The notes under the pieces are model-generated. The model saw nothing but the letters and a program-made list of their open reading frames with translations, had not been told where the DNA came from and made no database searches. Shown here piece by piece: positions 5,337-38,895 of a stretch of DNA of 64,000 bases. Position numbers and translations under genes: made by a program. The first letter of the stretch is position 1, and the number at the start of each line of letters is the position of its first letter. The DNA comes from an uncultured Anaeroplasmataceae bacterium (GTDB lineage: Bacteria > Bacillota_I > Bacilli_A > Acholeplasmatales > Anaeroplasmataceae), in contig CANRFF010000002.1 in the NCBI GenBank assembly GCA_947629825.1, forward strand, positions 89,875 through 153,874, read 5' to 3'.

Positions 5337-6176
5337 ATGAATTCAACGAAAAGAATTTTAACCATTCAGGATATTTCATGTGTCGGGCAATGTTCCTTGA
5401 CGGTGGCACTTCCGATTATTTCGGCGGCGGGCATCGAAACCGCTGTTTTGCCTACGGCCGTTCTTTCCACGCATACCGGAGGGTTTGAAGGATTTACTTT
5501 TTGCGATTTGACCGAAGAAATGCCGAAAATCGAAAATCATTGGAAAAAAGAACATATTTTCTTTGACGGAGCATATACCGGATATATCGGAAGCATTCGG
5601 CAAATCGATTATATTTTGTCTATTTTTTCTTCCGTAGTCAAAAAAGACGGAATCATTGTCGTAGATCCTTGTATGGCGGATCACGGGAAATTGTATCCGG
5701 GATTTTCTTCGGACTTTCCGAAAGAAATGTTGCGATTGTGTCAAAGAGCCGATATTTTGGTTCCGAATATGACCGAAATGTGCTTGTTGTTGGAAAAAGA
5801 ATACAAGGAGCAGTTTACGAAAGAGGAAATCGAACAAATGGTGATTTCTTTGGCTGACAAAACCGATACTTCCATTGTTTTAACGGGAGTTTCTTTTTCG
5901 GCAAATCAATTGGGATGTTGTATTTATCACCGGGAAAACAAAACCATTCAATATTATTTTACGGAGAAAATTCCGTATTCTTTTCATGGTACGGGAGATT
6001 GTTTTGCCAGTTCTTTTTTTGCGGGAATCATGAAAAATCTTTCTTTGGAAGAGGCCGTTCGTTTGGCTTGTGAATTTACCTATCAGGCCTTATCGGCAAC
6101 GATAGAAGACCGAAAAGAACATTGGTACGGTGTTCATTTTGAAAAGGCGTTGTATTTGTTGAATTCGATAAAGTAA
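5337..6176 (+). CDS. Pyridoxal/pyridoxamine kinase (ribokinase superfamily)
   Basis: 279 aa. The opening 'KRILTIQDISCVGQCSLTVALPIISAAGIETAVLPTAVLSTHTGGF' is characteristic of the pyridoxal kinase branch of the PfkB/ribokinase superfamily. The anion-hole and catalytic base motif GTGDCF (H-GTGD) is near residue 221. Such enzymes phosphorylate pyridoxal/pyridoxamine in vitamin B6 salvage. It starts one base after the M42 stop with a GAGGAG site. A role on hydroxymethylpyrimidine (ThiD-like) is possible but less likely from the N-terminal sequence. Confidence 0.87.
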   Translation: MNSTKRILTIQDISCVGQCSLTVALPIISAAGIETAVLPTAVLSTHTGGFEGFTFCDLTEEMPKIENHWKKEHIFFDGAYTGYIGSIRQIDYILSIFSSVVKKDGIIVVDPCMADHGKLYPGFSSDFPKEMLRLCQRADILVPNMTEMCLLLEKEYKEQFTKEEIEQMVISLADKTDTSIVLTGVSFSANQLGCCIYHRENKTIQYYFTEKIPYSFHGTGDCFASSFFAGIMKNLSLEEAVRLACEFTYQALSATIEDRKEHWYGVHFEKALYLLNSIK

Positions 6177-6188
6177 AAGGAGAATCCG

Positions 6189-7277
6189 ATGCGGAAACTG
6201 ATTTTGGAAAATGAAGCGTTAATCGAAAAATTTAATATCGATAAATATTTGGAGCAAAAAAATTTTCCGGTGGCTGCGGCCCTTTCCGCTTTGGAAGCAA
6301 CCAACGAAGTTCAGAAAAATTATTTTTTGACCGAGAAAACGTGTGAAGAAAACTCGGAAAATATTTTACGGCTGTATGCGTTACTGCAGGCATTGTTCGT
6401 TTCGATCGACTCTTTGTACTCTTTGGCGTATTCATTTACCAGAAGTAAAAATTTTATCAATATCAATCTGAATCCCCAGATGAGAGAACTCAAATATATC
6501 CGAAACGATGTCGTAGGACACCCCAGCAACCGGATCTATCATCATGAAACGATTGCGTTTTGTATTCTGGATACCAAAAGTATCGGTCAAAATGAGTTTC
6601 GGTATCATATTTATACGGCTGACGAGACGATTGAAAAACAGGTGGATTTACGAGAACTTGCGTACAACTATTATGTCGAATGTAATCGATATCTGAATCG
6701 GTTATATGATATCGCTTATCATAAAAACGAAGAAAATCAGGCGATTTCGTCGATGTTGAAAGTGTTGGATTTGTATCGTTTTCAAAAGGATTATCATGCG
6801 GAATTGGCTCAATTTCAAAAAGTATATTCCGAATGTTTTCCGCAGACGGACGCTTCCGGAAACCGAATTTTTTGGAGATTGCGGTTGATTGACCGACTGA
6901 AGAACTATTCTGCCCGGAATGCCGATGAGGCGGATTTGAAAGAATACTGTATCGGATTGGAACTGATTAAAATCTTCGAATTGTTGGCTCAACAAAAATG
7001 CGATGGTATGACCGAACGGAAAAAACCGTATTTGGTGGTAAGTTTTTACCGCTTTTTGAAAAAGAACCGTATTGATAAAAATCTCTTGATTCCGGTGCAT
7101 GATTCAAAGCATCCGACAATTGAGGTTACTTTAAATTATTTGACGGACTTGGCCAAAAAGAAAAAGGCCGAAGGTCCGCTTCGATATCTGACGCTGTTGA
7201 AAGAGCTTTTGGAACAAAAACAGGAAGAGCTTCTTTATGCGTTTGCGTTGCCGATCAAAGAATATCAAAAGAAGTAG
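6189..7277 (+). CDS. Unknown protein with a HEPN-like R-x5-H motif
   Basis: 362 aa, almost entirely helical by composition, no signal peptide or membrane segment. I do not recognise a named family. About residues 60-125 resemble a HEPN helical domain: an amphipathic helix (LYALLQALFVSIDSLYSLAYSF) followed by 'RELKYIRNDVVGHPSN', where R105-N106 ... H111 fits the R-polar-x4-H motif found in HEPN RNases and HEPN nucleic-acid-binding subunits. The rest (150-362) is charged helices without a recognisable catalytic motif. It lies 12 bp after the pyridoxal kinase gene and its stop overlaps the ribosome site of typA, so it is co-transcribed with typA. Nuclease activity is not shown by sequence alone. 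Confidence 0.7.
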   Translation: MRKLILENEALIEKFNIDKYLEQKNFPVAAALSALEATNEVQKNYFLTEKTCEENSENILRLYALLQALFVSIDSLYSLAYSFTRSKNFININLNPQMRELKYIRNDVVGHPSNRIYHHETIAFCILDTKSIGQNEFRYHIYTADETIEKQVDLRELAYNYYVECNRYLNRLYDIAYHKNEENQAISSMLKVLDLYRFQKDYHAELAQFQKVYSECFPQTDASGNRIFWRLRLIDRLKNYSARNADEADLKEYCIGLELIKIFELLAQQKCDGMTERKKPYLVVSFYRFLKKNRIDKNLLIPVHDSKHPTIEVTLNYLTDLAKKKKAEGPLRYLTLLKELLEQKQEELLYAFALPIKEYQKK

Positions 7278-7288
7278 TGAGGAAAATC

Positions 7289-9124
7289 ATGGAAATCAGA
7301 AATATTGCGATTATTGCCCATGTGGACCATGGGAAAACAACGTTAGTGGATAAATTATTGAAAAGTTCGCATACTTTTCGGGAAAATCAAGTGGTACAGG
7401 AAAGAGTTCTGGATTCCAACGATTTGGAACGGGAACGCGGAATTACGATCTTGGCTAAAAATACGGCGATTGTGTATCGGGATACGAAAATAAATATTTT
7501 GGATACTCCCGGGCATGCCGATTTTTCCGGCGAAGTGGAACGGATTATGAAAATGGTCGACGGAGTGGTTTTGGTTGTCGATGCTTATGAGGGCACGATG
7601 CCTCAGACCAGATTTGTTTTGAAGAAAGCATTTGAGGCTCATTTGAAACCGATTGTCGTCATCAATAAAATCGATAAGTCTTCGGCTCGACCGTTGGAAG
7701 TGTTGGATGAGGTACTGGAATTGTTCATCGACTTGGGATTTGATGAAGAGGATCTGAATTTTCCGGTTTGTTATGCTTCGGCAATGAATAATACCTGTTC
7801 CATGTCGGCGGATATTTCGACTCAACAGGAGGGAATGGGATTATTGTTGGATTTGATTATCAAAGAAATTCCGTCTCCGAATCGGGATATCACGGGAAGT
7901 TTGCAACTGCAACCGGCATTATTGGATTATACGGATTTCGTGGGACGAATCGGGATCGGAAAAATTGCCCGGGGAACGATTCATGCCGGAGAAGTGGTTT
8001 CGTGTTGTCGGTTGGACGGCTCGGTCAAAACGTTCCGGATTCAGAAATTGTTCGGCTTTTTGGGACTGGATCGAATCGAAGTGGCGGAAGCTTCTGCGGG
8101 GGATATCGTGGCGTTTGCCGGATTGGCGGATGTTTCCGTGGGGGAGACGATTTGCAATGTCGGTAAAGAAGAACCGCTTGAAAAAATTCATATTTCCGAG
8201 CCGACGGTACAAATGACTTTCGGGATCAACACTTCGCCGTTTTGCGGAAAAGACGGAAAGTTTGTCACGGCATCGAAAATCGAAGAACGCTTGTTTCGGG
8301 AAGTTCAGAAGGATGTTTCTTTGCGGGTTCAAAGAATCGAAAACAAAGAAGAATGGATTGTTTCCGGTCGGGGCGAATTGCATTTGGGAATTTTGATTGA
8401 AACGATGCGAAGAGAAGGATATGAATTTGAAGTTTCCCGTCCGCAAGTCATTATGAAAACCATTGACGGCGTCCTTTCGGAACCATATGAGTATTGTCAG
8501 ATTGATGTTCCGTCGGAATCGGCCGGATCCGTTATCGAAATGATGGGAAATCGCAAGGGAATTATGGAAAATATGGCAAATACGGAAACGCAAACCCGTT
8601 TGATTTATACGATTCCGTCCCGAGGACTCATCGGCTTTAATACGGATTTTATGACTTTGACCCGGGGATATGGTATTCTGAATCATAATTTTTCGGAATA
8701 TCGACCGGTGGAAAATGTTTCGGTATCCGAACGGCTTGCGGGAGTATTGGTATCGATGGCGCAAGGACAGTCTACGGCCTATTCCATCGGTGCTTTGGAA
8801 GATCGCGGAACCATGTTTATTGCCCCGGGAGAAGAAATTTACGAAGGAATGATTGTCGGTGAGGCGAATAAAGATCTGGATCTTGCGGTCAATGTCGTCA
8901 AGGCCAAACAACAAACCAATACCCGATCGTCCAACAAAGATATGACGGTCGTTTTGAAAACGCCGAAGAAATTTTCTTTGGAAGAATGTCTCGAGTACAT
9001 CAATGAAGACGAATTGGTCGAAATCACGCCTTCTCATATCCGGTTGCGGAAAAAAATACTGGATATGGTCGAGCGGAAAAAATTCGATGCGAAAATGAGA
9101 AATTTGAAAGAAAACGAAGAATAA
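7289..9124 (+). CDS. typA: Ribosome-associated GTPase TypA/BipA
   Basis: 611 aa from ATG 7289 (TGAGGA six bases upstream; the in-frame GTG at 7277 sits on the previous stop). G1 motif HVDHGKTT (11-18), switch 'ERERGITI', G3 'DTPGHADF', G4 'NKID' and G5 'SAM' are all present. EF-G-like domains III and V follow, with 'GRGELHLGILIETMRREGYEF', and the BipA-specific C-terminal domain ends in 'ITPSHIRLRKK'. TypA is a translational GTPase that assists 50S assembly and growth under stress and cold. Length is normal. Confidence 0.97.
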   Translation: MEIRNIAIIAHVDHGKTTLVDKLLKSSHTFRENQVVQERVLDSNDLERERGITILAKNTAIVYRDTKINILDTPGHADFSGEVERIMKMVDGVVLVVDAYEGTMPQTRFVLKKAFEAHLKPIVVINKIDKSSARPLEVLDEVLELFIDLGFDEEDLNFPVCYASAMNNTCSMSADISTQQEGMGLLLDLIIKEIPSPNRDITGSLQLQPALLDYTDFVGRIGIGKIARGTIHAGEVVSCCRLDGSVKTFRIQKLFGFLGLDRIEVAEASAGDIVAFAGLADVSVGETICNVGKEEPLEKIHISEPTVQMTFGINTSPFCGKDGKFVTASKIEERLFREVQKDVSLRVQRIENKEEWIVSGRGELHLGILIETMRREGYEFEVSRPQVIMKTIDGVLSEPYEYCQIDVPSESAGSVIEMMGNRKGIMENMANTETQTRLIYTIPSRGLIGFNTDFMTLTRGYGILNHNFSEYRPVENVSVSERLAGVLVSMAQGQSTAYSIGALEDRGTMFIAPGEEIYEGMIVGEANKDLDLAVNVVKAKQQTNTRSSNKDMTVVLKTPKKFSLEECLEYINEDELVEITPSHIRLRKKILDMVERKKFDAKMRNLKENEE

Positions 9125-29444: not shown

Positions 29445-29969
29445 TTGATTGATTGTATTGTCTATTATTCCGAAATGGGACACACCAAAAAGTATGCCGA
29501 AGAGATTGCCGAACAACTGAATTTACCGGTCTTGCCGTTCAACAAAGCCAAAAAACAACTTCAAAAAGACACCTCTGTTTTATTTTTCACGGGAATTCAT
29601 TCGAATGTTTTATTGAAATTGAATCGCCTGTATCACTACCATTTGGTTGGTGTGGTCGGCGTCGGAATTTCTTACGGAACAGAAGAACAGCTTCACAAAA
29701 TTTCGGACGAAAATGTGCTGTATTGTCCGTTTTATTATTTGCGTGGCGGAATCTGCCGGAAAGGTCTTTCGCTTTGGAATCGCCTCCGTTTAAAATGGAT
29801 CGAACAAGAACTTTCTTATAAGGTTTTGGAACATCGGGCAACGGAAGAAGAACTTTCTATTCTGGATGCGATTTTACACCAAACGGATTTTTATGACGAA
29901 ACGGCAAGAGATCTGTTGGTCTCGAAATTGAAACAAACGGATTTCGATTTTTCAAATACTACACATTAA
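29445..29969 (+). CDS. Flavodoxin-fold protein
   Basis: 174 aa if translation starts at TTG 29445, eight bases behind GGAG; the protein then opens with the flavodoxin first strand and FMN-phosphate loop 'DCIVYYSEMGHTKKYAEEIAEQL' (T/S-x-x-G-H-T-x-K). 'TSVLFFTGIHSNVLLKLNRLYHYHLVGVVGVGISYGTEEQLHKI' resembles strands 3 and 4 of flavodoxin/IscA-like flavoproteins. The C-terminal 60 residues are helical and unlike standard flavodoxins. It could be a small FMN electron carrier or an oxidoreductase. The initiator is uncertain because no ATG lies close to the SD. Confidence 0.65.
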   Translation: MIDCIVYYSEMGHTKKYAEEIAEQLNLPVLPFNKAKKQLQKDTSVLFFTGIHSNVLLKLNRLYHYHLVGVVGVGISYGTEEQLHKISDENVLYCPFYYLRGGICRKGLSLWNRLRLKWIEQELSYKVLEHRATEEELSILDAILHQTDFYDETARDLLVSKLKQTDFDFSNTTH

Positions 29970-30065
29970 ATTGTTAAATTTCCTATTTACGTTCATCATA
30001 ATGAACAAATATTTTCCTTTTTCGACAAAAAACTGGAAAAATTTTACTTTTTTCGAGATTGTTTC

Positions 30066-30095
30066 TTGTTGTAAAATATAAAAATGTGATAAAAT
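30066..30095 (+). promoter_or_regulatory. Promoter of the TPR regulator gene
   Basis: TTGTTG (30066-30071), 18 bp, TAAAAT (30090-30095). An upstream inverted repeat GTTCAT-CATA-ATGAAC occupies 29991-30006. Confidence 0.5.
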
Positions 30096-30118
30096 AAAAC
30101 AAAGAAAGGGGAATTGGA

Positions 30119-31255
30119 ATGAATATAAAAAAATATATTTCTTTAGAGTCTTATTTTCAGTCGACCAATAAATACTATCTGTTTTTCGATAGCATTATGA
30201 AACAACAGCATAAATTACAAAAAGAGGTTCTCAAAGAAGTCGGAATTCCGGCTTCGACTTATCGGGTCAATCGAATGTCGGATGTTGTGAAAAACGATAA
30301 TTATTTGAAACTTCTGAATTACTTCGATATTCAACCGCTCCGCCCGGAACAACAAAAAGAATACGAAAACGTATTGACCGAATGTTTTTCGGCCATCTAT
30401 TATCGTAACGTGGAAGAATTGGAAAAAAATTATAATACGCTTTGTCGGTTTATCGAAGAAAACAATTATCTGAAACCGATTTTCGTATTGTTTCGGCTGC
30501 AAACCGATTATATCCTCTATGGTGCTGAACAAGTAAGACAGGATGAGAATATCAAACGGGATCTCGAATACTTGTCTTTGTTTGAAAGAGACTTTTTCGA
30601 AAATGAATTTGAAATTCTGTATTTGGGGTGTTTTTTATTCGTAGTTCAAAATAAAGGAACGATTGACGACGAGATGACTTGGGCAAAATATCCGGAGTGC
30701 TCGGGATTTTATTATTTTCAACTGGCTCGTTATTATCATCACACCGGAAGAGATGCCGAGGCGGTATTATATTTGGAAAAATCGCAGAAATTGTTTTTGG
30801 AAGACTGCAATATCGATCGGTATTTACTTGCGACGCAGCATATGGCCGCCTTATATACCCATATCGAATGTCCGAATGTCGCTTATGATGTTTTGAAACC
30901 TCTATTTGAATATGTGATCAGTAAATCATGTGAAAAGGGTTTGAAAAAAGAGATTGTTTCAACGTATCTTTTGTCTTTGTTTATGATGAAGAAATTTCAA
31001 TCGGTGGTATCGACGGTTCAACAGTATCTGGATCAGGACGATTTTTTTCCTGTGACGGCGATTCTTGTGATGTTGTCTTATAAGGAAACGGGAAATTTTG
31101 AAAAAATCGAATCTCTTTCTTCGGTCGGTTCACGTTCGGAAGTATTTTATAAATTTTATTTCCAACGACAACCGTTGACGGAAGAGGAGCGTCCTTATTT
31201 GAAAGGCTCGAAAGTTTTGGATCTGATTTTAAAACAGATGAAAATTGTCATTTAA
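30119..31255 (+). CDS. TPR-type cytosolic regulator resembling RRNPP sensors
   Basis: 378 aa, helical throughout, no membrane segment. Residues 25-75 look like a degenerate helix-turn-helix ('QKEVLKEVGIPASTYRVNRMSDVVKNDNYLKLLNYFDI'). From about 95 to 340 there are repeated helix pairs of TPR type, such as 'GFYYFQLARYYHHTGRDAEAVLYLEKSQKLFLE' and 'LATQHMAALYTHIECPNVAYDVLKPLFEY'. HTH followed by TPRs is the architecture of Rgg/PlcR/PrgX-like receptors that bind exported, re-imported peptides. A small gene with a signal sequence lies 141 bp downstream. No family name can be assigned with certainty, and the HTH is weak, so a Rap-like protein-binding role is also possible. Confidence 0.65.
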   Translation: MNIKKYISLESYFQSTNKYYLFFDSIMKQQHKLQKEVLKEVGIPASTYRVNRMSDVVKNDNYLKLLNYFDIQPLRPEQQKEYENVLTECFSAIYYRNVEELEKNYNTLCRFIEENNYLKPIFVLFRLQTDYILYGAEQVRQDENIKRDLEYLSLFERDFFENEFEILYLGCFLFVVQNKGTIDDEMTWAKYPECSGFYYFQLARYYHHTGRDAEAVLYLEKSQKLFLEDCNIDRYLLATQHMAALYTHIECPNVAYDVLKPLFEYVISKSCEKGLKKEIVSTYLLSLFMMKKFQSVVSTVQQYLDQDDFFPVTAILVMLSYKETGNFEKIESLSSVGSRSEVFYKFYFQRQPLTEEERPYLKGSKVLDLILKQMKIVI

Positions 31256-31260
31256 TGTCG

Positions 31261-31284
31261 AAAAACAAGAAAATGTTGTTTTTT
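31261..31284 (+). terminator. Weak terminator after the TPR regulator
   Basis: AAAAACAA/TTGTTTTT stem (A/T-rich, 8 bp) around GAAAATG, then T. GAAAATGT in the loop also forms a dyad with ACATTTTC at 31290-31297. Confidence 0.45.
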
Positions 31285-31340
31285 AATACACATTTTCTTT
31301 TTTTATGAAGAAAAAAACAATAAAAAAATGTTTTTTATGG

Positions 31341-31369
31341 TTGAATTGTGTAAAATGTTGTGCTATAAT
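31341..31369 (+). promoter_or_regulatory. Strong promoter of the secreted peptide gene
   Basis: TTGAAT (31341-31346), 17 bp ending in the TGC of an extended -10, TATAAT (31364-31369). AAAATGTT occurs three times in the 100 bp before it (31270, 31325, 31352), a candidate recognition element. Confidence 0.75.
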
Positions 31370-31396
31370 CCTTATAAACAGGGAAGGGGATAGCGT

Positions 31397-31606
31397 ATGA
31401 AAATGTTAAAAAGAATTTTCTTAATCTTTTTATTGGCCTTGGCTGTTGCTCCTGTCGTACAGGGGATAAGTCATATGGTAGATCAACCGCAAATGACGGA
31501 AGACATTGTCGGTAAAGGAGATAAAGGCGGTCCGAAAGGTGGCGGAGGAACCGGAGACGACGGCGACGGCAGAAGTTCCGTAACTCCGAATCATCAATCG
31601 GCATAA
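31397..31606 (+). CDS. Secreted small Gly/Asp-rich peptide precursor
   Basis: 69 aa. Residues 1-24 are a classical signal peptide: MKMLKR, then a hydrophobic core IFLIFLLALAVAPVV ending at QG. The remaining 45 residues are polar and flexible: acidic start 'SHMVDQPQMTEDIVGKGDKGG', a glycine tract and a GDDGDGR stretch, ending RSSVTPNHQSA. AAGGGG seven bases before ATG and a near-consensus promoter argue that it is real and well expressed. Its place directly behind a TPR regulator suggests a pheromone precursor, an inference. Other options are a small secreted or membrane-anchored factor. There are no cysteines, so it is not a disulfide-bonded bacteriocin. Confidence 0.6.
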   Translation: MKMLKRIFLIFLLALAVAPVVQGISHMVDQPQMTEDIVGKGDKGGPKGGGGTGDDGDGRSSVTPNHQSA

Positions 31607-31641
31607 AGAAAAAGGTAGACAATGATGATTCATTGTCTACC
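31604..31641 (-). terminator. Terminator of the XRE pair, shared hairpin with the peptide gene
   Basis: A perfect 12-bp stem GGTAGACAATGA/TCATTGTCTACC (31614-31625/31630-31641). On the minus strand it is followed by TTTTTCTTT, a full terminator for the XRE genes. On the plus strand it lacks a T run but may stabilise the peptide mRNA end. Confidence 0.88.
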
Positions 31642-31653
31642 GAAAATTCCCGT

Positions 31654-32013
31654 TTAAAATATTTTGGTTCCGTCTAAAATATAGTTGATGAGTTCCTGCT
31701 GTTCTTCCGTGCAGGAAGTAATGGCGGTATATAATTCTTTTTCAAGCAATGATTTTGCGATAAAACTGGTATAGTCTTTTTGCATATCATAGCCCAAATC
31801 TTCATTATAGTTTTCTTTGTCGACGCCTAAGATATAATTGACGGTGACATTGAATGTTTCCGCAATGGCTTTGAGATTGGTGATACTCGGTTCCGTCCGA
31901 CTGGTTTCCCAATCGCAAATCGTATGCCGTTTGACATTCAACAGAGCGGCCAAGTCATCTTGCGACATTTTGGCGGACTTTCTCAGAAAACGGATTCTGT
32001 TTGAATATTGCAT
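31654..32013 (-). CDS. XRE-family HTH regulator (second of a tandem pair)
   Basis: 119 aa. Residues 1-60 are a lambda-repressor-type HTH: 'RIRFLRKSAKMSQDDLAALLNVKRHTICDWETSRTEPSITNLKAIAETFNVTVNYILGVD'. Residues 61-119 are a short helical C-terminal domain with no protease or sensor motif. AAAGGAG lies seven bases before the ATG, in the end of the upstream paralogue, with a 2-bp gap between genes. The DNA-reading segment VKRH(T/S)ICDWE is nearly identical to that of its neighbour, so both probably recognise the same or overlapping operators. Confidence 0.88.
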   Translation of the reverse strand: MQYSNRIRFLRKSAKMSQDDLAALLNVKRHTICDWETSRTEPSITNLKAIAETFNVTVNYILGVDKENYNEDLGYDMQKDYTSFIAKSLLEKELYTAITSCTEEQQELINYILDGTKIF

Positions 32014-32015
32014 GA

Positions 32016-32369
32016 TTATTCTCCTTTATGAAAATTTTTTAAATTGGAAATGATGGAACGGAATCTTTCCTGTTGATTCGGCGACATTTCGCTTGCCCGG
32101 GATAAAAGATTGTGTTCCAATGGGGTATTTGTTTTGAATTTCGTCAAAATAATGTGATCTACATTGGAATCCCAGTTGTCGACTCCCAACAGATAGTCGG
32201 TAGTAATATTAAAAATTTCGGCGATATTTTGAATGTGAGTCACATTGGGTTCTGTTCTTCCGGATTCCCAATCACAGATACTATGGCGTTTTACGTTTAA
32301 TTTCACGGCCAAATCGTCTTGAGTCATATGATAGAATTTTCGGAAATGTCTGATTACATCGCTATACAT
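32016..32369 (-). CDS. XRE-family HTH regulator (first of a tandem pair)
   Basis: 117 aa from ATG 32369, with GGAGG ten bases upstream; the longer frame to 32432 would overlap the promoter. The HTH 'MTQDDLAVKLNVKRHSICDWESGRTEPNVTHIQNIAEIFNITTDYLLGVD' matches the neighbouring protein in 33 of 50 positions. The C-terminal 45 residues differ completely between the two. This points to a tandem duplication with divergence of the effector half. It may autoregulate the pair and act on the convergent peptide gene or divergent amidase gene. Confidence 0.86.
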   Translation of the reverse strand: MYSDVIRHFRKFYHMTQDDLAVKLNVKRHSICDWESGRTEPNVTHIQNIAEIFNITTDYLLGVDNWDSNVDHIILTKFKTNTPLEHNLLSRASEMSPNQQERFRSIISNLKNFHKGE

Positions 32370-32403
32370 TTTTGTCAATCCTCCATTCTTCGATATTATT
32401 TCT

Positions 32404-32432
32404 ATATTATCATAATTTATATGTTTGTGCAA
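32404..32432 (-). promoter_or_regulatory. Promoter of the XRE pair
   Basis: On the minus strand TTGCAC (32427-32432), 17 bp, TAATAT (32404-32409). Confidence 0.6.
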
Positions 32433-32472
32433 ATCTGTGAAAAAAACAAAAAAAGTTTAAAAAAATAGAAAA

Positions 32473-32498
32473 ATCTCATTTTGTGAGATATTTTTTTT
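32473..32498 (+). terminator. Orphan plus-strand terminator upstream of the amidase gene
   Basis: ATCTCA/TGAGAT stem (32473-32478/32484-32489) with TTTTG loop, followed by A and T8. No plus-strand gene precedes it; it could end a small RNA starting near 32406. Confidence 0.6.
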
Positions 32499-32668
32499 AT
32501 TATTGACGGTTTTTTCAAACATAAGCATTCTGTTTTTTGTATTTTTTTAAGTTAAATTTAGTTTCAAAAAAATGTATTTTAATCCCCAATTTCGCCATTT
32601 TTTTCTCTTTTTATTGTCGTATAGTTATTTTTGCGGATTTTTTGAACATAAAATGGAGTGGTGATTTG

Positions 32669-35458: not shown

Positions 35459-35869
35459 ATGAATCCGACGGATCTTTTGAAAGAAGAACTTTCCGAATTG
35501 ATGAAATTGGGTCAATTCAAAGATTTGAAAATATTTGTCGAAGGAGAAACGGCAGTATTGTTTATGTTGTATTCTCATAAAAAAATGACCCCCAAAGAAC
35601 TATCGAAGGTGTTGGGAATTACCAAAGGAAGAGTGACCTCTTTGTTGAATCGTCTCAATGAGAAAAAATATATCCGGATTTCCATATCTTCGGAAGACCG
35701 CAGATGTTTCAATGTCGAGTTGACGGAAGCGGGAATGCATGAGTTACGGCCGAAGATGAATCGGGCGGAGAAACACTTGAAGCGTGTTTTTGAGGTTTTG
35801 AAAGAAGAAAAAATGAATCTTTTGATTGAATTGATTCACGAAATGAGAACATCGTTGGAGGCGGAATAA
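35459..35869 (+). CDS. MarR-family transcriptional regulator
   Basis: 136 aa. Winged helix-turn-helix with 'MTPKELSKVLGITKGRVTSLLNRLNEKKYIRISISSEDRRCFNVELTEAG' (about 40-95), the classic MarR recognition helix and DRR wing. The flanking helices form the dimer. MarR proteins repress efflux operons until a small ligand binds. Here it is the first gene before an ABC transporter, with ATPase starting one base after the stop, so autoregulation of the operon is likely. Confidence 0.93.
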   Translation: MNPTDLLKEELSELMKLGQFKDLKIFVEGETAVLFMLYSHKKMTPKELSKVLGITKGRVTSLLNRLNEKKYIRISISSEDRRCFNVELTEAGMHELRPKMNRAEKHLKRVFEVLKEEKMNLLIELIHEMRTSLEAE

Positions 35870-36571
35870 ATGGATTATGTTGTTTTTGATCGGGTAACGA
35901 AAAAATATGTGATGGGGAGTTCGGAAATTTATGCGAATCGGGAAGTTTCTTTTTCGATCCGCCAGAAAGAATTTTGTGTGATTGTCGGACCGTCCGGTGC
36001 CGGAAAAACCACGATTCTGAATCTGTTGGGCGGGATGGAAACCGCCGATGAAGGCCATATTTTCGTCGATGGACGGGAGATTACGCAAATGAAAGAAAAA
36101 GATTTGACGAATTATCGCCGATATGATGTCGGATTTGTGTTTCAGTTTTATAATTTAATGCCGAATCTGACGGCGTTGGAAAATATTGAAATCGCATCGG
36201 AAATCTGTAAAAATCCATTGAAAGCCGCAGATACGTTGTCTCAGGTGGGACTGGAAGGAAGATTTCAGAATTTCCCTTCGCAGTTGTCCGGCGGGGAACA
36301 ACAAAGAGTATCCATTGCGAGAGCGATTGCGAAAAATCCCAAAATTCTGCTTTGTGACGAGCCGACGGGCGCTTTGGATTATTTGACCGGAAAAAGCATT
36401 TTGAAATTACTGCACAATACCTGTCGGAATATGGGAAAAACGGTGATTGTCATCACTCATAATACGGCTTTGACACAAATGGCCGATCATGTCATTCAGA
36501 TTAAAAACGGGTCGGTGGAAAAGGAATATTGGAATGAATCTCCGCAAAATATTGATGAAATCGAATGGTGA
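35870..36571 (+). CDS. ABC transporter ATP-binding protein (MacB/LolD type)
   Basis: 233 aa. Walker A 'GPSGAGKTT', Q-loop 'VFQFYNLMPNLTALENIEIA', signature 'LSGGEQQRVSIARA', Walker B 'ILLCDEPTGALD' and H-loop 'VITHN' are complete. The 'FQFYNLMPNLTALENV'-like sequence is typical of ATPases that partner FtsX-type permeases. It works with the next gene, whose start overlaps this stop. Confidence 0.95.
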   Translation: MDYVVFDRVTKKYVMGSSEIYANREVSFSIRQKEFCVIVGPSGAGKTTILNLLGGMETADEGHIFVDGREITQMKEKDLTNYRRYDVGFVFQFYNLMPNLTALENIEIASEICKNPLKAADTLSQVGLEGRFQNFPSQLSGGEQQRVSIARAIAKNPKILLCDEPTGALDYLTGKSILKLLHNTCRNMGKTVIVITHNTALTQMADHVIQIKNGSVEKEYWNESPQNIDEIEW

Positions 36572-38895
36572 TGAAAATGAAAACATTTCGAAAATCCGTT
36601 TTTAGAGATTTAAAAAAGAATCTGAGTCGTTTTATTGCGATTATTGCCATTATGGCGCTGGGGGTCGGTTTTCTGATCGGACTTCTTTCGGCAACACCGG
36701 ATTTGGAAAAATCGATGGATTCGTATTATGATCGGGAACAAATGTGGGATATTTTGATTAAAAATACCGACCCAAGAGGGTTTACGGAAGAAGATTTGGA
36801 AAACCTTCAAAACGAATTTTCCGATTTTGAAAAAGCAGAAACATATTTTCAAAACGATATCGTCGGAAGTTATCAGGATAGCGATATTACTTTACGTCAA
36901 GTCATTTGTTCTTTTTCTTCGGAAACGGCAAAAATTCATTTGATCGAAGGGACGCTTCCGCAAGAAGAAAACGAAATCGTTGTGCAGAATATCGGTATTT
37001 TTCAATCGGCATCGCCGGTCGGCAAAAGTCTGAAAATCAGGGGAAACGATTATACGATTGTCGGCGTTTGCGAAAGCCCCGTTTATTTTTATAAACTGCC
37101 GGAACCTGCTCTTGCGGGAACGGGGAATTTGGATGCGGTGGTTTATCAGGATCGATCCTTTTCCATGATTCCTTATCCCGATACGGATCTGGTGATTCGG
37201 GTTGCGGGATTTTCGTCGAAAAATTGTTTTTCATCCAAGTATTTCGATGATTTAAAAGTCTATGAAGAGCAGTTGGAAGACCATGCGAAAGAAAATCATA
37301 AATCTTGGATCGTACTGGACCGGAAAAGCAATGCCAGTTATGTCAGTTTTAAAGAAAATGCCGAAAAAGTCAATAAAATCGCCGTAGTGTTTCCGGTCTT
37401 TTTCTTCTTTATTGCTGCTTTGATTGCGCTCACTTCGATGACGAGGTTGGTTACGGAAGATCGAATGAGTATCGGAACGCTCAAATCACTGGGTTTTTCC
37501 AAAGGAACCATTCTTGCGAAATACCTGTCGTACTCTTTTTTGGCTTGTATGATCGGCTCGGTCGGCGGAATTTTAATCGGAGTTTATTTGTTGCCTATGG
37601 TCATTTATCAGGCTTATGTAACGCTTTTTCTGATGCCGAAAGGAATTTTTTTGTGGAATGGTTGGTTTATTTTATTGGCATTTGTCTCTATGACGGGAAC
37701 CATTCTTGCAGTAACGATATACACTTGCCTCAAAACTTTGAAAGAACGACCGAATTCTTTACTGATTCCCCGTAGTCCGCGCCCGGGCAAAAGAATCTTA
37801 TTGGAAAAGATTCCTTGGATTTGGTCTCATCTGAAATTCAAGTACAAATCCGCAATTCGCAACATTTTCCGCTTTAAGAAAAATCTGTTGATGATGATGA
37901 TCGGGATCGGCGGATGTATGGCGTTGATTTTGGTAGCATTCGGATTGCAGGATTCGATCAATGCGCTTTCTCAAGATCAGTATCGGGATATTCTGAAATA
38001 TGATTTATTGATGGAAACAAGCGGTTCTTTGAATTTGGAAGAAATCATCAAAGACAGTCAGACGCTTCCGATTCGTTTGGAGAAAACTCAACTGAAAGAA
38101 AATACGGATTACGATGTTTCGTTGATTTATGCGGATGAACGGATTTTGGAATATATGGATTTGAATGTTTCCGAGTTCCGACAAAAAGATGTGATTATCT
38201 CCAAGCAGTTATCGGTGGATTTTCATTGGGGGAAAAATGATCTCATTCGTCTTCAAAATTCGCAAAGCGATTGGTCTTTTACGGTAAGTTCGGTATTCGA
38301 AAATTATATCGGCAATTATGTGATTGTTTATTCGGAGGATCTTTCGGATTCCAATGCCTTGTTTTTGCGTTACGGAACGGACGATCGAAAGCGGGAAGAA
38401 GAAATCGTTCAGAAACTGTATCAACTTCCCGAAATCCGTCAGATCGAAGTCCTGTCAACTACCAAAGAAAACTATGGTACGATGCTCGACAGTTTACGAA
38501 CGATCATATCCGTGATTATTCTTTGTTCGGGAGCGCTTGCGGTGATTGTTATCTACAATCTGACGAATATCAATATCAACGAACGTTTGAAAGAAATCGC
38601 CACTTTGAAAGTTCTCGGCTATCACAGAAAAGAAATTTGCGGATATATTTATCGGGAGATCATCATTATGAGCGTTTTCGGTATGTTGTTCGGCTTCTTG
38701 TTGGGCGTGGTGCTGAATTATTTTGTAATGCATCAACTGGCCAGTATCGGCCAATATTTCAAAACGTCGTTAAACGGGTGGAATTATTTGTATGGTATCG
38801 GTATCACTTTGGCGTTTGTATTGTTGGTTTTGGTTTTGTTTATTCCGAAAATGAAAAAAATCAAAATGGTCGAATCCTTGAAATGTGTGGATTAG
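36571..38895 (+). CDS. FtsX-like ABC permease with two FtsX domains
   Basis: 774 aa from the ATG in the TGATG overlap (ATGs at 36565 and 36577 are also possible). The layout is one N-terminal membrane helix (ALGVGFLIGLL), a large extracytoplasmic domain (about 50-265), three helices of the first FtsX domain (270-390), a second outer domain with 'LILVAFGLQDSI', and three C-terminal helices starting 'IISVIILCSGALAVIVIYNLTNININERLKEIATLKVLG'. This mechanotransmission type exports or displaces antimicrobial peptides and lipids. MarR control suggests a small-molecule or peptide resistance function. Substrate not known. Confidence 0.92.
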   Translation: MKMKTFRKSVFRDLKKNLSRFIAIIAIMALGVGFLIGLLSATPDLEKSMDSYYDREQMWDILIKNTDPRGFTEEDLENLQNEFSDFEKAETYFQNDIVGSYQDSDITLRQVICSFSSETAKIHLIEGTLPQEENEIVVQNIGIFQSASPVGKSLKIRGNDYTIVGVCESPVYFYKLPEPALAGTGNLDAVVYQDRSFSMIPYPDTDLVIRVAGFSSKNCFSSKYFDDLKVYEEQLEDHAKENHKSWIVLDRKSNASYVSFKENAEKVNKIAVVFPVFFFFIAALIALTSMTRLVTEDRMSIGTLKSLGFSKGTILAKYLSYSFLACMIGSVGGILIGVYLLPMVIYQAYVTLFLMPKGIFLWNGWFILLAFVSMTGTILAVTIYTCLKTLKERPNSLLIPRSPRPGKRILLEKIPWIWSHLKFKYKSAIRNIFRFKKNLLMMMIGIGGCMALILVAFGLQDSINALSQDQYRDILKYDLLMETSGSLNLEEIIKDSQTLPIRLEKTQLKENTDYDVSLIYADERILEYMDLNVSEFRQKDVIISKQLSVDFHWGKNDLIRLQNSQSDWSFTVSSVFENYIGNYVIVYSEDLSDSNALFLRYGTDDRKREEEIVQKLYQLPEIRQIEVLSTTKENYGTMLDSLRTIISVIILCSGALAVIVIYNLTNININERLKEIATLKVLGYHRKEICGYIYREIIIMSVFGMLFGFLLGVVLNYFVMHQLASIGQYFKTSLNGWNYLYGIGITLAFVLLVLVLFIPKMKKIKMVESLKCVD

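Follow-up and report, generated by a model that had tools for sequence, protein, structure and literature searches.

Most known RRNPP systems come from Bacillales, Lactobacillales and some clostridia, and from the phages of these bacteria. In NprR-NprX of the Bacillus cereus group, the receptor consists of an HTH followed by a TPR superhelix, and the gene of the peptide precursor lies just downstream. In Rap-Phr systems, the precursor with its signal peptide is likewise encoded downstream of the receptor and yields pheromones of 5-6 residues, but the receptor has no HTH. In phage Rap-Phr systems, the precursors carry 1-4 copies of the pheromone (PMC11343458). The SHP peptide gene of Rgg systems has its own promoter and is part of a positive feedback loop, and mature SHPs, e.g. 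EGIIVIVVG and EGIIVIGVG, are cut before Glu/Asp and begin with Glu/Asp-Gly (PMC12445099). An HTH-TPR receptor is also found in AimR-AimP. The RRNPP_detector survey covered complete Firmicutes genomes and viruses only, and its authors call MAGs unexplored (PMC10075063). In the literature searched, no paper joining RRNPP with Mollicutes was found, which is no proof of its absence in print, nor was an earlier report of a regulator-peptide pair of this kind in Anaeroplasmataceae.

The window, i.e. the whole stretch of 64,000 nucleotides that was analyzed, belongs to an uncultured Anaeroplasmataceae bacterium and sits on contig 2 of its 1.42 Mb genome, which is 96% complete. Two genes in it were studied, with the following features:

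30119-31255, plus strand: HTH-TPR regulator gene (ORF, 378 aa), candidate cytosolic peptide receptor; AF2 model with structural matches to NprR, Rap and AimR
30170-30322, plus strand: Cro/C1-type helix-turn-helix, residues 18-68 (HTH-only model, Foldseek)
30344-31240, plus strand: TPR-type helical array (residues 76-374), presumably the superhelix that binds the peptide (AF2 model, VIA-align, family profile)
31397-31606, plus strand: candidate peptide precursor gene (ORF, 69 aa); its signal peptide extends to about residue 23, with a Gly/Asp-rich tail beyond

The two genes are probably an RRNPP-type intracellular-receptor quorum-sensing cassette that belongs to an as yet unnamed subfamily and works as a local regulator-peptide loop. 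A preliminary description had read them as a regulator and pro-peptide of the RRNPP type, and this reading is supported by the fold and by the conserved pairing, with peptide binding suggested by the fold. It is further based on the HTH class, a conserved promoter, a unique pair of palindromes, the Opp operon and the RseP/Eep-class protease of the host, a [DES]GVG core in the tails and purifying selection. Against it stand the missing sequence match to a named family, the lack of the core in the window peptide, the modest LLR of the motif, and the palindrome, which is common to one relative only and whose pattern was defined post hoc. If confirmed, a family that NCBI assigns to the Mollicutes would join those with intracellular peptide quorum sensing, and a largely uncultured lineage would offer a receptor with promoter and operator for direct tests. 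A gut bacterium would then export a small peptide and carry an internal sensor-switch that probably reads it.

At the sequence level, the regulator could not be assigned to a described family. All Pfam TPR matches were sub-threshold and no Pfam HTH match was obtained, NCBIfam assigned no family, and neither phmmer nor the family profile matched NprR, Rap, PlcR, Rgg or PrgX chains in the PDB, although the profile does match TPR chains there. The AlphaFold (AF2) model, built from a 16-member alignment, reached a pLDDT of 88.5 and contained both predicted domains, a Cro/C1-type HTH made up of helices 18-29, 34-41, 45-53 and 61-68 and a TPR superhelix. The HTH modeled alone reached a pLDDT of 90.8, and Foldseek placed HipB, SaPI2 Stl and 434 Cro on top of mainly lambda-repressor-class matches, each of them weak (best E 0.11). 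When the complete model was compared with the PDB using Foldseek, NprR-NprX was found first (4gpk, E 1e-3; 5dbk, TM 0.55-0.58), with a TM of about 0.5 for these two best entries, followed by Rap of phage Phi105. With VIA-align, Rap was the closest fold (Z 19) and NprR reached Z 16.7, both over residues 74-378, against a background that falls to Z 14 for unrelated TPR proteins. The alignment with AimR begins at residue 1, but its Z of 13.8 lies inside this background, at the level of the unrelated TPR proteins LGN and IFIT1. Rgg was missing from the fold-match lists, and the BFVD matches were generic TPR proteins.

The modeled HTH and TPR domains with their NprR and Rap matches suggest that the regulator has the architecture of a DNA-binding RRNPP receptor. 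Its 378 aa and C-terminal TPR superhelix agree with the RRNPP(A) definition of a receptor (250-500 aa), and its modeled HTH with the N-terminal HTH expected of all subfamilies but Rap. A common fold alone is, in a model, no proof of peptide binding. The sequence does not place the regulator in the NprR subfamily: identity is about 12% without a sequence-level match, and the precursor tail is unrelated. NprR is also 40-50 residues longer. The earlier statement that neither protein resembles a named member therefore holds by sequence (Pfam, NCBIfam and PDB searches) and fails by fold, since NprR-NprX and Rap are the closest solved structures. In the groove, the window regulator has T239, T247, T282 and F293 where most relatives have N, N, H and Y; N is found at position 247 in 14 of 16 members and Y at position 293 in 15 of 16.

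The small gene is preceded by a Shine-Dalgarno sequence, GGGAAGGGG, at 31381-31389. Its product starts with MKMLKRIFLIFLLALAVAPVVQG, which by hydropathy is a plausible Sec signal, and continues in a Gly/Asp-rich tail of 46 residues without Cys, ISHMVDQPQMTEDIVGKGDKGGPKGGGGTGDDGDGRSSVTPNHQSA. An adjacent gene of 10-100 aa with a Sec signal is part of the RRNPP(A) definition, and the 69-aa gene agrees with it as judged by hydropathy. The signal peptide, the tail composition and the separate promoter that had been described for this gene were all recovered. An Rfam search gave no match within 29900-32600 of the window. Between and upstream of the coding regions, the following elements could be identified:

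31341-31369, plus strand: peptide gene promoter with TG extension (TTGAAT-17-TATAAT), the best-placed plus-strand promoter-like site of the region
31262-31304, plus strand: T-rich hairpin holding the dyad 31269-31297, probable terminator of the regulator gene (fold, terminators of relatives)
31261-31283, no strand: palindrome AAAAACA-N9-TGTTTTT, copy 1, candidate operator (23 bp, exact match)
31313-31335, no strand: second copy of the palindrome AAAAACA-N9-TGTTTTT (copy 2), likewise a candidate operator; its end lies 5 bp upstream of the -35 box

The promoter architecture is conserved in the family: a near-consensus sigma-70 promoter was found at most 85 nt upstream of 13 of 19 precursor genes, compared with 0.9 expected from shuffles. 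Two other elements of the preliminary description had to be revised. The motif AAAATGTT, given there as three copies before the promoter, occurs at 31270, 31325, 31352 and 31400; three copies are indeed intergenic (local shuffle mean 0.12; 0 of 2000 shuffles reached 3), but two of these lie upstream of the promoter and one in its spacer, and the fourth falls within the peptide-coding region. A GAAAATGT/ACATTTTC dyad is indeed present at 31269-31297, but is probably not an operator, as it belongs to a longer hairpin with arms at 31262-31276 and 31290-31304 (-12.4 kcal/mol, z -3.1) and a T-rich 3' side. In many relatives an intrinsic-terminator hairpin directly follows the regulator at the same place. 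The dyad is more likely part of a terminator and partly overlaps palindrome copy 1.

By its sequence features, the palindrome pair appears the better operator candidate. Exact matches to AAAAACA-N9-TGTTTTT occur only twice in the 1.42 Mb genome, 52 bp apart and both before the peptide promoter, and when the intergenic stretch was dinucleotide-shuffled 20000 times, two copies never arose together. Copies 1 and 2 contain the AAAATGTT motifs at 31270 and 31325, respectively. In L021, from another genus of Anaeroplasmataceae, the same palindrome abuts the -35 box; the pattern was defined from the comparison of the window with L021, after both sequences had been seen. L021 is the only relative sharing the palindrome, which is absent from more distant ones, as expected if recognition helices differ. 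A wider regulon was considered and rejected: seven of the one-mismatch sites elsewhere were inspected and comprised six in ORFs and one between convergent genes. Because the inspected sites lie in genes or between convergent genes, they point to no additional target gene. Since perfect palindromes occur at this locus only, the visible core of the system is the autoregulatory loop, and the position of a palindrome next to the -35 box suggests an activator, hence positive feedback.

According to this reading, the 69-aa precursor would leave the cell through Sec, be cleaved by signal peptidase and undergo extracellular trimming. A short piece of the tail would re-enter via the oligopeptide permease Opp and bind the TPR superhelix of the regulator, as its fold suggests. 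An oligopeptide permease for uptake of the peptide is part of the RRNPP(A) definition, and a complete OppABCDF operon is present on contig C6 of the host genome, which also encodes an RseP/Eep-class M50 protease. The HTH dimer may then act at the palindrome pair seen upstream of the -35 box. Activation would result in positive feedback as in SHP/Rgg and PapR/PlcR; alternatively, the regulator might repress and be relieved by the peptide.

Regulator homologues were identified in 13 of 99 relatives searched, not counting the own genome, and the family is present in 16 of 55 Anaeroplasmataceae genomes. It extends, more distantly, to other families of the class, and the family profile detected no homologue in other families of the order. 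A profile from a closer sub-alignment, run on genome contigs, gave seven loci with taxon names. These named relatives are Anaeroplasmataceae MAGs, and a MAG of the same genus bears the label Anaeroplasma bactoclasticum. The Mollicutes assignment notwithstanding, a wall-less host is refuted by transpeptidase-domain proteins encoded in the genome, which indicate that the host is probably walled.

Downstream of 12 of 16 full-length Anaeroplasmataceae regulators, the window included, an ORF of 50-69 aa, charged at its start and with a hydrophobic segment, was found at a distance of about 115-220 nt, so the small gene beside homologous regulators that the preliminary description had proposed to look for is indeed common. 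The tails of the encoded peptides are divergent across the family. Five of 11 tails contain a [DES]GVG core, compared with a shuffle mean of 0.13; with a close group collapsed, 3 of 9 do (p 1e-4). All three regulator clades are represented among them. In an unbiased motif search this core obtained an LLR of 129 compared to 122 (sd 3) for shuffles, which is moderate support. As to the short conserved pheromone segment of the RRNPP(A) definition, the core is found in part of the family, and the window peptide has no (D/E/S)GVG core although its nearest relatives carry GVG or GVY. Taken with the groove residues in which the window regulator departs from its relatives, one reading would be a joint drift of signal and receptor. 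For the L022/L023 peptide ORF, the sole informative pair, dN was 0.13 and dS 0.41; this pair is under purifying selection.

The comparison with SHP/Rgg can be extended to the peptides. In both systems, the peptide gene has a separate promoter and the regulator a target operon nearby, and the SHP cores resemble EGVGILGF and DGVGYLGL of relatives of the window peptide, a likeness seen by eye that serves as a lead. Unlike the 69-aa gene product, SHP precursors have no classical cleavable signal and are small, with 20-25 aa in the examples of PMC12445099.

Behind the pair, L022, L023 and L029 carry the gene of a secreted protein and then an ABC transporter gene, with variants in L031 and L035. In L029 the secreted protein, encoded at 5812-7392 two genes past the regulator homologue and next to the ABC transporter gene, is of the MACPF (perforin-like) type. 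Secreted protein and ABC transporter are likely the outputs in those relatives. In other families of the class, the regulator is followed by the gene of a lipoprotein or of a secreted protein 80 to 170 aa long. The larger lipoprotein gene that takes the precursor position in L107 and L094 is easier to explain as an output than as a pheromone and was counted against the RRNPP reading. In L108 (4327-4674), the secreted protein directly after the regulator homologue has four tandem 29-residue repeats (87-nt units) with the core VIIRDDDNDEGTLICSIG. Compared with the multi-copy precursors of phage Rap-Phr (PMC11343458), such long repeat proteins could, by analogy, be multi-copy precursors, or they could be secreted outputs; the L108 repeats are far longer than Phr pheromones and are candidate pheromones by analogy only. 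A homology of long repeats and short tails was also considered. The repeat matrix scored no better on the tails as a set than on shuffles (233 of 1000 as good), so a resemblance noted by eye is not claimed; the best single tail was that of L033 (p 0.04).

These neighbors bear on the chief alternative, in which the small secreted protein is itself the output, an effector or antimicrobial, and the regulator senses another peptide or a protein. The secreted proteins of 134-170 aa and the lipoproteins that hold the downstream slot in other families would suit this explanation, as would the variable tails and the strong separate promoter and operator of the small gene. It is nevertheless unlikely: with about 25-46 residues, the mature parts would be small for a folded effector, and the fold of the regulator is that of receptors with the ligand encoded next door. 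Moreover, several clade A and clade B members have another, larger secreted gene after the small one, so that signal and output appear as separate genes.

It is very improbable that the 69-aa frame is a chance ORF and the regulator an orphan TPR regulator. With a strict definition of the precursor (length, charge, hydrophobicity and Shine-Dalgarno), 9 of 14 regulators were paired, compared with 1 of 206 other long ORFs of the same loci; 4 of 209 control ORFs had qualified, of which 3 were regulator homologues and were removed, and the Fisher p was 4e-10 even with these 3 kept as controls. Although the intergenic region is short and AT-rich, position, promoter, ribosome site and signal-peptide architecture thus recur far above control. 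Four of the 16 relatives have no precursor (L028, near a contig end, L032, L025 and L034), but L032 keeps promoter and ribosome site without the ORF, as a decayed copy would. The L032 regulator (G005:C31) is possibly a relic or a listener-only receptor.

Instead of a quorum system of the cell, the pair might be an arbitrium-like module for lysis or phage-type decisions, which is equally improbable. In its favor, the structural matches include AimR, and in clade C the pair adjoins holin-family genes (Pfam PF16079, PHROG holin) in L033 (6933-7521) and L103 (4123-4413), with small ORFs similar to these by eye in L093 and L099; the holin genes may point to a prophage or to holin-based export. Against it, an arbitrium system would be located in a temperate phage, but no phage genes lie near the window locus, and no relative was found in two IMG/VR scans or by tblastn of a clade C regulator against 50,697 phages.

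For the RRNPP-type cassette, the wider claim can be put forward only tentatively. An undescribed RRNPP-like subfamily may be spread over Anaeroplasmataceae and neighboring small-genome families, with precursors ranging from single peptides to four-copy polyproteins (L108), and may control an adjacent secreted, once MACPF-type pore-forming, protein and its ABC transporter in several hosts.

Several loci showed further arrangements. In L093 (G360:C5), two paralogous cassettes of regulator and small ORF lie ∼11 kb apart, with the same two small genes after each. The regulator homologue of L026 (G008:C9) is broken by in-frame stops or a frameshift and the small downstream ORF is retained. In L103, a large RHS-repeat protein is also encoded beside the regulator copy. 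In the window, no evident output gene directly follows the pair; instead, two tandem paralogous XRE/RstR-DicA-like repressor genes (31654-32013 and 32016-32432, minus strand) are convergent with the peptide gene and are probably terminated by a strong hairpin at 31614-31641. At 35459-38895 on the plus strand, a MarR-like gene, with a further one-mismatch palindrome inside it at 35769-35791, is followed by genes for an ABC ATPase and a 776-aa FtsX/MacB-like permease.
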